A stretch of DNA of 64,000 nucleotides from Clostridia bacterium (GTDB lineage Bacteria > Bacillota > Clostridia > Peptostreptococcales > Acidaminobacteraceae): the NCBI GenBank assembly GCA_016937975.1, contig JAFGVN010000073.1:1-64000 (forward strand), given 5' to 3'. The position numbers and the translations under genes were made by a program. Under the pieces are notes generated by a model that ran no database searches, was not told the DNA's origin, and was given only the letters and a program-made list of their open reading frames with translations. Shown here in pieces: positions 42,635-48,560 of this stretch. The first letter of the stretch is position 1. Every line of letters begins with the position of its first letter.

Positions 42635-43378
42635 TCAGACCAGTAAACCTAGTTTTTCTGATTCTAAATTTTTTTGTTTCTGCAAAGCAGAGAATTGATA
42701 CTGCTCTAAAATTCTTTGTTTATTTAACTCCATCATTGATTTTGCAAGATCTGTATCGGCAATTGTAGCTCGCGAGGCAGTTTGCTGTATTGTACTCGCT
42801 TGAGTATTGTTTAAATTGGCTTGTAAGCCATTATCCTGTGCACCGATTTGACTTCTTGCTGCATTAACCTTATTGATGGCTTCATCAATTTTTCCGATGT
42901 CAAAATTACCTTCCACAGAGAATCCCTTAATGCCTAAAGATTCCAAACTGGTGTTTTCCAATTGCATCACAGTACCTTGACCATTTGCGCCTGCACCTAA
43001 AGTCTTATCTGTGAAAGAACCATCAAGAAGTTTCATGCCATTAAATTCGGTATTTTGAGCACTGCTTTGAATGGTATCAAATAAGGAATTAATTTCCTTT
43101 TGAATGATGCTTTTATCATCATTGGTTAAAATACCATTACTTGCTTGAACAGCCAACTCTTTTACTCTCAATAAAGAATCTGAAATATTGTTTAAAGATC
43201 CTTCTGCTGTACGCAGTAAATCCTGACTCGATTCTATGTTCTTTTGAGCCTGCTCATTGCCTTTAATCTGACTATTCAGTTTTTCTGATATCGCTAAGCC
43301 TGCTGGGTCTTTGGAGGCCGAGGTTAGCCTATTGCCACTGGCAATTTGTGAATACACGTCATATGCTTGAATTTTCAA
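42635..43378 (-). CDS. Short flagellin-like protein (probable TTG start)
   Basis: YSQIASGNRLTSASKDPAGLAISEKLNSQ and C-terminal SRATIADTDLAKSMMELNKQRILEQYQFSALQKQ; RBS GAGGTGAT before TTG. Confidence 0.83.
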   Translation of the reverse strand: MKIQAYDVYSQIASGNRLTSASKDPAGLAISEKLNSQIKGNEQAQKNIESSQDLLRTAEGSLNNISDSLLRVKELAVQASNGILTNDDKSIIQKEINSLFDTIQSSAQNTEFNGMKLLDGSFTDKTLGAGANGQGTVMQLENTSLESLGIKGFSVEGNFDIGKIDEAINKVNAARSQIGAQDNGLQANLNNTQASTIQQTASRATIADTDLAKSMMELNKQRILEQYQFSALQKQKNLESEKLGLLV

Positions 43379-43504
43379 GGTTATCACCTCACTGTCATTC
43401 ATATATACCCTTTTTTATGGATTTTTAAACAATTGAAAAAAGAAAGGTATTGTTAATTTTACATTATGTTGGGTATAAGCCTTAAAAAGAGAAAGGAAAA
43501 CATC

Positions 43505-44710
43505 GTGAAAATAGGATTTGGGTTAATCACCAAGGATTTTTTAACAGCAGAGCCCATAGATCAATTTATTAGAAATGCCAAGAAATTTGGACACGCAATT
43601 GATAGTGTCATTATTGGATATGGTGATCAAATTAATCGTGAGGTCATAGCCGCTTTGGAGAAAGAAGTAAAAGTACATTCAATTCATATTCGAAAATCTG
43701 TAGAATTAGACGACTATCTTACTCGGCAAGGTATGACACAGTGGGAAAGAACAGCTTTAATAGGCAATATACATAAGGATTCTGATGGTAGAGTTCCCTA
43801 TGGCAATAGCAGAAATCATATTATTATGAAGGCGATAAAAGAACATTTGGATGTTCTGATTTTCATCGACACAGATGTATATCCCGAAGTTGTCATACAT
43901 GAAAAGGATCTTTTGAAAGATGAAAAGCTGTTTTTAAGAAAAACCAGTATGGAGCATGTTTTTATACAAGAAGTTGATTTTGTTAAGGAACATTTAAAAG
44001 CCTTGTCCGATAAACACGTTGTCGTTTCTACCAGTGATTATACAGGTTATTACATTATTCCCCCAATGGCTTTTGAAGGTATGGATGATTTATTTTATGG
44101 CTTAAAAAAAGAAAGTGCTTATAACTATATCAAGGATAGCTATCAACATAATTGCTTGTCTTTAGATCATGGTATCAGACGACAACCTTTCAGAACAGAA
44201 AAAGTATTAGGAGGCAATGTTGCAATAAAACTAGAGTTGTTTAAAAGTATCGTACCATTCTTCTCCAGTGCCTATTATATGAAGGATACAAAGTACCTTA
44301 CAAGAGGAGAAGATACAGTTTTGGCTTTGCAAATGAAGGAAGTGACTTCAAAAAAATTCGTTGATATCGATATGAAGATTTTTCACAATACTTACGGTCA
44401 TTTTCCTACTGTTCCTGATATTTTAAAGGATCAATGCATCAAAGATCGATTTTTTAATGCCAGTATGGGATGGCTCGGTAGAAATCCATTTTTAAATTAC
44501 TTGTCTGGTATCAGAAAAGAATATGCCTATGAGCAAGAACACAAAAGATTAATAGCAGGCTCTCAAGCAATTTATAAATATTTGAAAGATGAAAGATTTT
44601 TATTGCTGCCAGAAGCCCATGATCTTGCCTATGCGCATTTAGATACAATGATAAAAGAATATGAAGCATTTAAAACAAGTTGGTTTAACTGGATAAGGAG
44701 GTTACAATGA
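43505..44710 (+). CDS. Glycosyltransferase-like protein (GT-A type, DxD-like IDTDVYP)
   Basis: LIFIDTDVYPEV; operonic with two further glycosyltransferases and galU; GTG start with RBS. Confidence 0.6.
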   Translation: MKIGFGLITKDFLTAEPIDQFIRNAKKFGHAIDSVIIGYGDQINREVIAALEKEVKVHSIHIRKSVELDDYLTRQGMTQWERTALIGNIHKDSDGRVPYGNSRNHIIMKAIKEHLDVLIFIDTDVYPEVVIHEKDLLKDEKLFLRKTSMEHVFIQEVDFVKEHLKALSDKHVVVSTSDYTGYYIIPPMAFEGMDDLFYGLKKESAYNYIKDSYQHNCLSLDHGIRRQPFRTEKVLGGNVAIKLELFKSIVPFFSSAYYMKDTKYLTRGEDTVLALQMKEVTSKKFVDIDMKIFHNTYGHFPTVPDILKDQCIKDRFFNASMGWLGRNPFLNYLSGIRKEYAYEQEHKRLIAGSQAIYKYLKDERFLLLPEAHDLAYAHLDTMIKEYEAFKTSWFNWIRRLQ

Positions 44711-45900
44711 GGATTTTAATTTTAAATCACTTTCCCCTTGAAGGATCAGGGAGTGGGATTTATACAAAGAACTTAGCACGAGAATTAAGTGAAATGGGTC
44801 ATGATGTGAAAGTCGTTTTTCCTGAAATTGAGTCGGTATCCTTTGATGCATTTGAAACAAGAGTGATTATGTTCAAGGGACCAGAAACTCAAGCCCCAGA
44901 AATTGATTATAATTTTCCTTGCTTTACATCACATCCAAGAAGTATCAATACATATTATGACTTATCACAAGAACAACTTGAGGCCTATGTAGATAAATTT
45001 GTTGAAGTGACTAAGGAAGAAGTAGAAACGTTTAAGCCAGATGTGATACATGCTCAGCATCTATGGATTACACCTTATGCCGCTTCTTTAACAGGCGTTC
45101 CATATATCGTTACTGCCCATGGCACGGATTTAAAAGGTTTTGTTAAAGACAAGCGATATCATAAATATGCCTTGGAAGGGGCTAAGAAAGCAAAGAAAAT
45201 TATCACCATCTCAGAACAAGTGGATGAAGAAGTGACAGCTTTGTATGGTGTGGAAAAAGAACGTAAGGTCCTTGTCTTAAATGGTTATGACGAGAACCTC
45301 TTTAAAGTTAAACCTTTAAAGAGAAGTGAGATCTTAAGTGATTTCAACATCTTCGAAGAACCTGATTATATCGTTTCATTTGCAGGTAAGCTCACACATT
45401 TTAAAGGTGTTGATGTGCTTTTGAAAGCTGCAAAGATTTATGAAAGAGCTATTGATGGGAATGTGTTAACTTTAATTGCAGGTAATGGAGAATTATATGA
45501 GGAACTTCATACCTTAAAAGAGCAATTGCACCTCCAACATGTGAGATTTTTAGGACATGTCAATCAAAATCAACTGGTTGATTTATATAATATTGCTGAT
45601 GTGAGTACAGTACCATCCAGAACAGAACCTTTTGGGTTGGTTGCCATTGAAGCCCTTGCTTGTGGGACGCCTGTAGTAGGAACCAATCAAGGTGGATTAC
45701 CTGATTTTCTCATTCCAGAAGTGGGTACATTAGTGCCAGTAGATGATGATATTGCCCTTGCAGATGCAATTGTAAAAGAAATAAAAACAGCGGACAAGGA
45801 AAAGAGAGCGAATGAAGCGGCAGCCTATGCGCTTAAGAATTTCTCTTGGAAGAAATCTATTGGCGTAGTCGCTGAATTATATGAAAGTGTCATGAAATAG
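44707..45900 (+). CDS. GT4-family glycosyltransferase
   Basis: HFPLEGSGSGIYTKNLARELSEMGHDV; VPSRTEPFGLVAIEALACGTPVVGTNQGGLPD. Confidence 0.93.
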   Translation: MRILILNHFPLEGSGSGIYTKNLARELSEMGHDVKVVFPEIESVSFDAFETRVIMFKGPETQAPEIDYNFPCFTSHPRSINTYYDLSQEQLEAYVDKFVEVTKEEVETFKPDVIHAQHLWITPYAASLTGVPYIVTAHGTDLKGFVKDKRYHKYALEGAKKAKKIITISEQVDEEVTALYGVEKERKVLVLNGYDENLFKVKPLKRSEILSDFNIFEEPDYIVSFAGKLTHFKGVDVLLKAAKIYERAIDGNVLTLIAGNGELYEELHTLKEQLHLQHVRFLGHVNQNQLVDLYNIADVSTVPSRTEPFGLVAIEALACGTPVVGTNQGGLPDFLIPEVGTLVPVDDDIALADAIVKEIKTADKEKRANEAAAYALKNFSWKKSIGVVAELYESVMK

Positions 45901-45912
45901 AAAGGAGTATAT

Positions 45913-47655
45913 ATGCGTACTACAGTTGTAATTCCAAGCTATTGGAGTAGAGTAGATAACGCTTGGCAGCCGGGTGATGCGGTTTATGATCATCCAACAC
46001 CAATCAATGGTGAAGGCACTTTGGGTAGAACTTTGGAAAGTATGAAAATACTGAACAACAAGAAATTCAAATTGGTTATTCCTATTTGTCCTACCTGTAA
46101 AGAAGTTGAAGAAGCAGCAGAGAAGAGAGTGCGTGAAATTGTTGAGAAGGCAGATTTGAATATTGAAACTTATATTTTTACAGCTGAAAATCTGAGAACA
46201 ATTCGAGGGATCTTAATTGAGAAAGGTATGAAAGATGATCAAGTAAACCTTTTGAATATTCACGGCTATTCCAATGTTAGAAATATCTGTTTGTTTGTAT
46301 CACATATTTTATCTTCTGAGGTGACTATTCTTATAGATGACGATGAGAATTTTGAAAATCCAGACTTTATTAATATGGCAAAAGAATACATAGGGAAAAG
46401 GGTCTATGGTAAGGGCGTCTATGGTGTAGCTGGTTATTATCTCAACAAGTATGATGAGTTTTATGATGATGTGGAAATGGTGCCATGGATGACTTATTGG
46501 GATCGGTTTGGTTCTAAAACAAAAGCCTTTGATAAGATTATTTCATGCGATCCAAGATTGAAAGTAACACCGTTTGCTTTTGGTGGTTTGATGGTCATTC
46601 ATAAGAACTTATTTAAAACAGTAGCCTTTGACCCTGATGTGACTCGTGGTGAAGATATTGATTATTTAGTCAATGCCAAAATGTTTGGTTTTGATTTCTT
46701 CTTGGATAATAAACTAAACATCAAGCATTTACCACCAAAGAAAAATCATCCAATCTGGAAGCGTTTTAGAGAAGATATCTATCGTTTCTTGTATGAACAA
46801 GCAAAAATAAGATCTCAAGTAGAAGTGAACAATATGACGATGGTTAAAGCGAAAAACTTTGATCCATATCCAGGCGACTTTTTAAAAGACGATTTAGAGG
46901 ACAAAATTTACAAAACCAATGTTCTCTTGGCTTTGGAATATTTAGCAGATGGAGACATAGAAGGATGTAAGGAATCTATCAAGAATATTTATTTAAGTAA
47001 ATATGAGGCCATTCCAAAAGATGATCCATTTACCAAATATAGACGTGTTCAAAAAATCTGGACACAGATTATGGAAATGACCAGTAAAGAAAGAACGGTC
47101 ATCAGAAGAGTCATGGAGGAAAACAATCTTTCACATTCTTTAAGATCTTTACAGGATATTGAAATATCTTCATTATCCAAAGAGGAGATTATATTAAGAA
47201 TCAAGCACTTTGAAGACTTTAAGGATTTAGATGAAGCTGAATTAAAATTACTTGCAGATATCACGAGTGTGAGAGGTTATAAACAAGATGAAATTGTCTT
47301 CCAGATTGGTGATACAAATTTGGAATTTATGATGATCATCAAAGGCTGTGTAAGAATTTCCAAATTTAATGATTCCAATGAAGAAATTACCTTGGCAAAT
47401 ATCTGCAGTAATGGTGTAATCGGTGAAACTTCATTGATTAAAGAAAAATACAATGTTGTAGGTATTGCAGATGAGTTTACTGAAATGCTTGTTATGAAAA
47501 AAGAAGATTTGGAAGGGCTGATTGCTTCAGATCCTAAACTAGGCGTCAAAATGCTTTACATTATTTTGGAAAGACTGTATTATAAACTCAATAAAACGAA
47601 TCTCTTGTATCGAGATAAAATTATGCAAGAAGAAGGTCTACCAGAAATGAATTAG
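45913..47655 (+). CDS. Glycosyltransferase with C-terminal cyclic-nucleotide-binding-like domain
   Basis: N-term VVIPSYWSR, ILIDDDENF, FGGLMVIHKNLF, RGEDIDYL; C-term QDEIVFQIGDTNLEFMMIIKGCVRISKF...GVIGETSLI. Confidence 0.85.
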   Translation: MRTTVVIPSYWSRVDNAWQPGDAVYDHPTPINGEGTLGRTLESMKILNNKKFKLVIPICPTCKEVEEAAEKRVREIVEKADLNIETYIFTAENLRTIRGILIEKGMKDDQVNLLNIHGYSNVRNICLFVSHILSSEVTILIDDDENFENPDFINMAKEYIGKRVYGKGVYGVAGYYLNKYDEFYDDVEMVPWMTYWDRFGSKTKAFDKIISCDPRLKVTPFAFGGLMVIHKNLFKTVAFDPDVTRGEDIDYLVNAKMFGFDFFLDNKLNIKHLPPKKNHPIWKRFREDIYRFLYEQAKIRSQVEVNNMTMVKAKNFDPYPGDFLKDDLEDKIYKTNVLLALEYLADGDIEGCKESIKNIYLSKYEAIPKDDPFTKYRRVQKIWTQIMEMTSKERTVIRRVMEENNLSHSLRSLQDIEISSLSKEEIILRIKHFEDFKDLDEAELKLLADITSVRGYKQDEIVFQIGDTNLEFMMIIKGCVRISKFNDSNEEITLANICSNGVIGETSLIKEKYNVVGIADEFTEMLVMKKEDLEGLIASDPKLGVKMLYIILERLYYKLNKTNLLYRDKIMQEEGLPEMN

Positions 47656-47664
47656 GGGGACACA

Positions 47665-48534
47665 TTGAGTGTAAAAAAAGCAGTCATCCCTGCGGCTGGT
47701 TTTGGTACTAGGTTTTTACCTATGACTAAGGCTACGCCAAAGGAAATGTTGAATATAATTGATAAACCTGCCATTCAGTATATTGTAGAAGAAGCAGTTC
47801 AATCGGGTATTGAAGAAATTCTCATCATCACCATGCGCAACAAATCATCTATTGAGAATCACTTTGATGCATCACCTGAATTGGAATCCATACTCTTAAA
47901 ACAAAATAAAGAAGCCTTGTACAAAAAAACCCAGGCAGTTTCTCAATTAGCTGATATCTTTTACAAAAGACAAAAAAACATCAGTGGTTTGGGACAAGCA
48001 ATTCTAGAAGCAAAAGCTTTTGTAGGTAATGAACCTTTTGCTGTCTTGTTAGCCGATGATCTCATTGTCAGTGAAGTTCCTTGCTTAAAGCAACTCATCA
48101 GCATCTTTGAGGATAAGAAGGCTTCAACTATTGGTGTTCAAAAAGTTGAAAGTTGGGAAGTGGAGAAGTATGGGATTGTGGAAGGCACAGGAGCAGACCA
48201 TAAACTTCTTAAAGTAAAACATCTTGTTGAAAAACCTTTAGAAGAGGATGCGCCAAGTGAAATGGCCATTTTAGGACGCTATGTCTTAACCCCAGGTATT
48301 TTTGAAATCCTCGAAAACACAGAACCTGGGTATAACGGTGAATTACAACTTACAGATGCACTGAATACTTTGTCTAAAAAAGAAGAGGTTTATGCTTTTC
48401 AATTTGATGGAACAAGATTTGATTTAGGAGATAAGTTAGGTTATCTAAAAGCAACTGTAACCTTAGCCTTACAGCATGAAGAACTACAAGATGATTTCAG
48501 AGTTTTTATAAAGAACCTCAGTAAAAATCTTTAA
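47665..48534 (+). CDS. galU: UTP-glucose-1-phosphate uridylyltransferase (TTG start)
   Basis: KAVIPAAGFGTRFLPMTKATPKEMLNIIDKPAIQYIVEEAV. Confidence 0.95.
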   Translation: MSVKKAVIPAAGFGTRFLPMTKATPKEMLNIIDKPAIQYIVEEAVQSGIEEILIITMRNKSSIENHFDASPELESILLKQNKEALYKKTQAVSQLADIFYKRQKNISGLGQAILEAKAFVGNEPFAVLLADDLIVSEVPCLKQLISIFEDKKASTIGVQKVESWEVEKYGIVEGTGADHKLLKVKHLVEKPLEEDAPSEMAILGRYVLTPGIFEILENTEPGYNGELQLTDALNTLSKKEEVYAFQFDGTRFDLGDKLGYLKATVTLALQHEELQDDFRVFIKNLSKNL

Positions 48535-48560
48535 TCCCAAGCAAGGCTTGGGATTTTTTT
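48534..48560 (+). terminator. Rho-independent terminator
   Basis: ATCCCAAGC-AAG-GCTTGGGAT-T7. Confidence 0.88.

Follow-up and report, generated by a model that had tools for sequence, protein, structure and literature searches.

A conserved three-glycosyltransferase gene block of Bacillota whose third predicted enzyme carries a C-terminal domain of the cyclic-nucleotide-binding fold

The Pat acetyltransferase is regulated by cAMP, and cellulose synthase BcsA is a glycosyltransferase (GT) regulated through a PilZ domain. To our knowledge, most examples of direct, second-messenger-type control of GTs involve c-di-GMP and PilZ domains. CNB/cNMP-type domains (hereafter CNB) also occur in the family 2B encapsulins, where the domain is variable, has divergent pocket residues, and reportedly does not bind cyclic nucleotides (PMC12407261, PMC8346489). 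For GT-A enzymes, the core motifs DxD, G-loop, xED, and C-terminal His have been defined (PMC7185993). Enzymes fused to CNB-fold domains are known, as are GT-A enzymes; in Pfam, NCBIfam, PADLOC, and open-access papers, we found no record of the two combined and accompanied by fixed partner genes. Likewise, a search of the open-access literature for CNB/cNMP domains together with glycosyltransferases yielded no account of the fusion.

Here, we analysed such a fusion encoded in a 64,000-nucleotide stretch of DNA from a Clostridia bacterium (the window). The ORF at 45913-47655 (+) is a single intact frame of 580 aa that starts with ATG and is immediately preceded by an AAAGGAG-like ribosome-binding site. 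The encoded protein comprises a GT-A-type GT (aa 1-~400), a variable linker, a CNB fold, and one long terminal helix. The AlphaFold2 model (mean pLDDT 80.9) showed a GT-like N-terminal half, a helical stretch, the linker, a barrel, and the terminal helix. The linker (47113-47202, +; aa ~401-430) had a mean pairwise identity of 19%, and its residues 408-417 were modelled at pLDDT <50. The original prediction, made from the sequence alone, had described a GT joined to a CNB-like domain, with a frameshift between two separate genes as one concern. The fusion was confirmed by Pfam, the AlphaFold2 model, Foldseek, and a homologue survey; since full-length homologues free of internal stops were found in many genomes, a frameshift or assembly fusion was excluded.

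The GT-A-type domain (45913-47112, +; aa 1-400) was recognized by motifs, model, and Foldseek. Its sequence contains the DxD region IDDDE (D142-E145), the G-loop FGG (G224-G225), the xED motif GED (246-248) in RGEDIDY (E247 and D248), and the C-terminal His in KHLPP (H272), and the domain is closed by a helical extension at aa ~313-400. These four core motifs, assigned to residues by eye on the alignment, were invariant in 22 members, standalone copies included. Foldseek analysis of the N-terminal half yielded RmlT and, in a viral library, GT2/GtrB-type proteins, indicating a GT-A fold. No Pfam family exceeded its cut-off for the N-terminal ~400 aa, either alone or when 22 homologues were scanned (Glycos_transf_2-type matches were weak), and no NCBIfam GT match was obtained for this part. 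Placement in a named CAZy or Pfam family (GT2, GT27, or GT81) was rejected because a family-level match was absent. The core motifs, the model, and the structural matches support the earlier assignment of this part to the GT-A glycosyltransferases, and we infer that it is a GT-A enzyme with the catalytic equipment and with enzymatic activity.

The CNB-fold domain (47203-47628, +) consists of a barrel at aa ~431-540 and a C-terminal helix at aa 541-572, as delimited by PF00027, a PDB profile search, Foldseek, and alignment of the cassette. PF00027 matched aa 454-540 with 46.5 bits (E=3.7e-12), above the gathering score of 27.5, and also matched 21 of 23 aligned homologues, the exceptions being one copy truncated by its contig and one standalone copy. 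The PDB profile search returned CNB proteins only, matched over aa ~420-560, and Foldseek returned CNB structures at a probability of 1.00. In the AlphaFold2 model, the beta barrel spans aa ~451-528, and two helices (530-539 and 541-572) lie between it and the chain end. Thus, a CRP-like barrel was present as predicted, but the barrel proper spans aa ~450-540 rather than the last ~140 aa. The predicted lack of a DNA-binding part also held: the chain stops after helix 541-572 and a tail of ~8 residues, and the HTH that would define a CRP/FNR protein is absent behind the C-helix.

The phosphate-binding cassette (aa 503-520) reads GETSLIKEKYNVVGIADEF, with Asn in the Arg column; its loop at aa 506-512 was modelled at pLDDT <50. 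Thus, of the receptor signature formed by the ribose-contacting GE pair and a phosphate-contacting Arg, the window protein has the former but not the latter. Among the 27 fused sequences, the cassette Gly was invariant and the GE pair was kept in 24, its Glu being replaced by Leu or Met (GL or GM) in G945, G826, and G992. The Arg was present in G256, L005, and L007 only; in the other 24 sequences, the column was occupied by Asn, Ser, Tyr, Phe, Asp, Leu, or Met. Loss of this Arg, which the original prediction had noted, is therefore true of the window protein and most of its homologues but not of the whole family. The best conserved positions of the CNB part were the fold residues F436, G478, G504, and A519, together with E505 and E521, and a set in the C-helix (K558, L559, N563, and Y566).

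The homologue survey identified 27 CNB-bearing proteins, mostly full length, across Peptostreptococcales and a number of other families of Bacillota. In genome samples that overlap in part, the gene was detected in 13 of 41 genomes of the window's family (including G003, a contig-edge fragment), 22 of 297 at the order level (including G122, with a standalone-type fragment only), 3 of 391 at the class level, and 5 of 399 at the phylum level. A sixth phylum-level genome, G895, had the standalone GT only. The fusion is missing from most genomes yet recurs in distant Bacillota families, and therefore loss or transfer must be common. In the GT-domain tree, fused proteins were separated from standalone ones with support of 84/98, a value softened by long branches; this separation suits a single old fusion. 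Both domains are under strong purifying selection, as the dN/dS between G029 and G030 was ~0.06 for the GT and 0.045 for the CNB part; the ratio is usable between such close congeners, other pairs being partly saturated at synonymous sites. The mean pairwise identity was 32% for the CNB barrel versus 63% for the GT core, and such faster evolution, expected for a loosely constrained module, counts against a regulatory or oligomerisation role.

Several standalone GT-A paralogues, all on the minus strand (L091:8295-9461, L089:7634-8851, L088:6855-8054, and L066:6799-7992), lie in sugar-uptake or glycosyl-glycerate-type operons with ABC transporters among the neighbours and have no family match. 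They are candidates for new enzymes of a glycosyl-glycerate-type pathway. A viral origin of the fusion was rejected, as relatives were absent from viral contigs in a pattern-based scan. Regarding plasmid carriage, the sole match was a 2.6-Mb Acetoanaerobium record labelled plasmid, which is probably a chromosome: the record (L046, NZ_CP154629.1; Acetoanaerobium noterae) is 2.63 Mb, and its size suggests a chromosome.

The fusion is the last gene of a three-GT block, in which an unclassified GT-A (43466-44710, +) and a GT4 (44707-45900, +; PF00534, E=2.2e-37) precede it. In the window, it is followed by galU (47665-48534, +), encoding UTP-glucose-1-phosphate uridylyltransferase (TIGR01099, 371.5 bits; cut-off 326.8), and by an intrinsic-terminator-like hairpin (48533-48555, +; consensus scan only), which is the likely end of the operon. 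Block genes overlap or are separated by a few to tens of bases, suggesting co-transcription. The three genes occurred together in 24 of 24 loci whose contigs extend far enough, and a GT4 orthologue was found at every locus with room for one. In G992, the first GT gene is divergent, and in G256 an insert of two genes separates the first GT gene from the second. The G256 insert (L061:3788-6455) consists of a DUF2201-like gene and a gene with a weak match to sigma-54-activator-type ATPases; the fusion at this locus is one that keeps the Arg. galU follows the block in eight genomes, namely that of the window and seven relatives. This conserved three-gene context is a stronger clue than the ORF alone.

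The first GT was widely conserved alongside the fusion. Comparison with homologues places its true start probably ~13 codons downstream. No Pfam or NCBIfam match was obtained for it, and its PDB sequence matches were unconvincing. Its model (pLDDT 92) showed a GT-A fold with weak nearest structures in GalNAc-T2, hyaluronan synthase, GpgS (GT81), MPGS (GT55), and MGS (GT78), and the protein shares distant homology with the fused GT domain (hhalign E=1e-6). Seven genomes that do not belong to the window's family encode, directly upstream of the block, a 132-aa protein without a family assignment (L046:9051-9449, cluster c6). A role in anti-phage defence was rejected, as PADLOC gave no match for the four genes and the neighbouring flagellin.

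What the CNB domain senses, if anything, bears on three readings. A scan for class III cyclases (PF00211), with class IV outside its scope, gave no match in the window's genome, which is 98.7% complete. Since the Arg is also missing, the window protein is unlikely to work as a classical cAMP/cGMP switch, and the earlier suggestion that the ligand might not be a normal cNMP gains support. We consider it improbable that cAMP or cGMP switches the transferase by binding to the domain, where some other residue would take the place of the Arg. Such canonical allostery would agree with the widely kept GE pair, with the three sequences that keep the Arg, and with class III cyclase-domain matches in 9 of 25 cluster-bearing genomes scanned and in the L007 genome. 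However, the Arg is gone in 24 of 27 sequences, and PF00211 matches were absent from most cluster-bearing genomes, including G256, and from the L005 genome, these two being among the three Arg keepers; moreover, CNB domains with divergent pockets in family 2B encapsulins reportedly do not bind cyclic nucleotides (PMC12407261). Two further readings, regulation by another ligand and a structural role, have similar probabilities. The structural one, in which a ligand-free domain serves purely for dimerisation or docking, for example by linking the fused GT to its two partners, is a tentative alternative. It is favoured by the conserved residues, which map to fold positions and to the C-terminal helix (the dimer helix in CRP), by the degenerate pocket signature in several lineages, and by the strict co-occurrence with two other GTs, but the GE pair, A519, and E521 in the pocket region are still widely conserved. 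Judging from retention of these residues, a nucleotide-like ligand could still be bound. Accompanying this is a comparably tentative proposal that the GT family is under direct control of a CNB-fold sensor that has exchanged cyclic nucleotides for a different ligand, such as a nucleotide sugar, the glycan product, or some other metabolite. Such a sensor would govern the final step of an as yet undescribed three-GT pathway of Bacillota. The built-in small-molecule allostery put forward in the original prediction is a putative property of the transferase.

The nature of the acceptor was considered in the same way. A 255-aa flagellin-like protein (42635-43402, -; PF00669/PF00700) lies beside the block in the window and is oriented divergently from it; it lacks the canonical N-terminus, and its membership of the system is uncertain. 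It belongs to a clade of short flagellin-like proteins (~237-266 aa; tree support 100/99) without the usual flagellin N-terminal start, which also includes L047:12475-13218, L048:13110-13856, L092:3773-4510, L093:3597-4310, L095:4067-4843, and L109:482-1282. That the block glycosylates flagellin, or in the window's family this short type, is unlikely overall. Within that family, all 11 flagellin-bearing genomes with the cluster had a short-clade flagellin, versus 1 of 17 cluster-negative genomes, in which membership was mostly judged by match positions and not by a full tree (Fisher p=5.6e-7 by genome and 8.7e-4 by genus, both ignoring shared ancestry). The short type also occurs in cluster-positive G198 of another family and adjoins the block in the window's genus. 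On the other hand, this adjacency is limited to one genus, the short type is missing from most cluster-positive genomes outside the family, and G256 and G992 carry the cluster with no flagellin match. Flagellin was therefore rejected as the general acceptor; it is a possible acceptor within the window's family. It is similarly doubtful that the product is a small glycosylated solute of the glucosylglycerate or mannosylglucosylglycerate kind instead of a glycoconjugate. Standalone GT paralogues adjoin genes for glycerate kinase, a sucrose-phosphorylase-like GH13, mannose-6-phosphate isomerase, and phosphoglucomutase/phosphomannomutase and, in G945, a gene whose product is related to mannosylglucosylglycerate synthase (451 bits, under the cut-off of 640). 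In addition, GpgS, MPGS, and MGS are among the nearest folds of the first GT, and a mannose-6-phosphate-isomerase-like gene is found near the block in three genomes. However, the standalone paralogues show ~30-33% identity and branch at a great distance in the tree, the fold matches of the first GT are weak (TM ~0.4-0.5) and common to all GT-A enzymes, and the block has no conserved gene for a phosphatase or phosphorylase.

Here, we propose that the fused protein is the third enzyme of a three-GT assembly line and carries a CNB-fold regulatory or oligomerisation module, a reading to which we assign a probability of roughly 0.6. The conserved cytosolic cassette of GT-A, GT4, and GT-A-CNB would build a short glycan on an acceptor, and GalU would provide UDP-glucose for it in the window's species. 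The C-terminal barrel of the CRP/PKA type, lacking the DNA-binding part, would stem from one old fusion, with the canonical cAMP/cGMP site presumably lost in most members. The module would most likely be regulatory or oligomeric, either sensing a non-standard ligand or linking subunits through the barrel and the long C-terminal helix. If so, an old and conserved CNB-GT fusion with degenerate pockets would bring a different sensor to glycan synthesis. The natural series, in which the Arg is kept in some members and lost in most and the GE pair is lost in a few, may show by what route the ligand of a CNB domain is exchanged or lost. The three-GT block, with two enzymes outside any Pfam GT family, would mark an undescribed glycan pathway in anaerobic Bacillota.

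Compared with the described systems, the GT domain shares the GT-A fold and the DxD, G-loop, xED, and C-terminal His motifs with GT2, GT27 (GalNAc-T2), GT81 (GpgS), GT55, GT78, and RmlT, but the structural matches were at ~7-15% identity and all Pfam models were below their cut-offs. The beta barrel, the phosphate-binding cassette, and the C-terminal helix are common to CRP/FNR, the regulatory domains of PKA/PKG, and 3gyd; unlike in these proteins, the CNB part sits behind a GT, with no HTH, channel, or kinase, and the cassette Arg is missing from most members. Family 2B encapsulins (NF041163) and Pat (NF058543), to which the direct NCBIfam matches were weak, likewise carry a CNB domain on a non-transcriptional protein, but the partner domain differs. 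PilZ-regulated GTs such as BcsA also combine a GT with a C-terminal module related to second-messenger receptors, whereas the module of the window protein has a CNB fold and not PilZ, and the protein has no evident membrane part.
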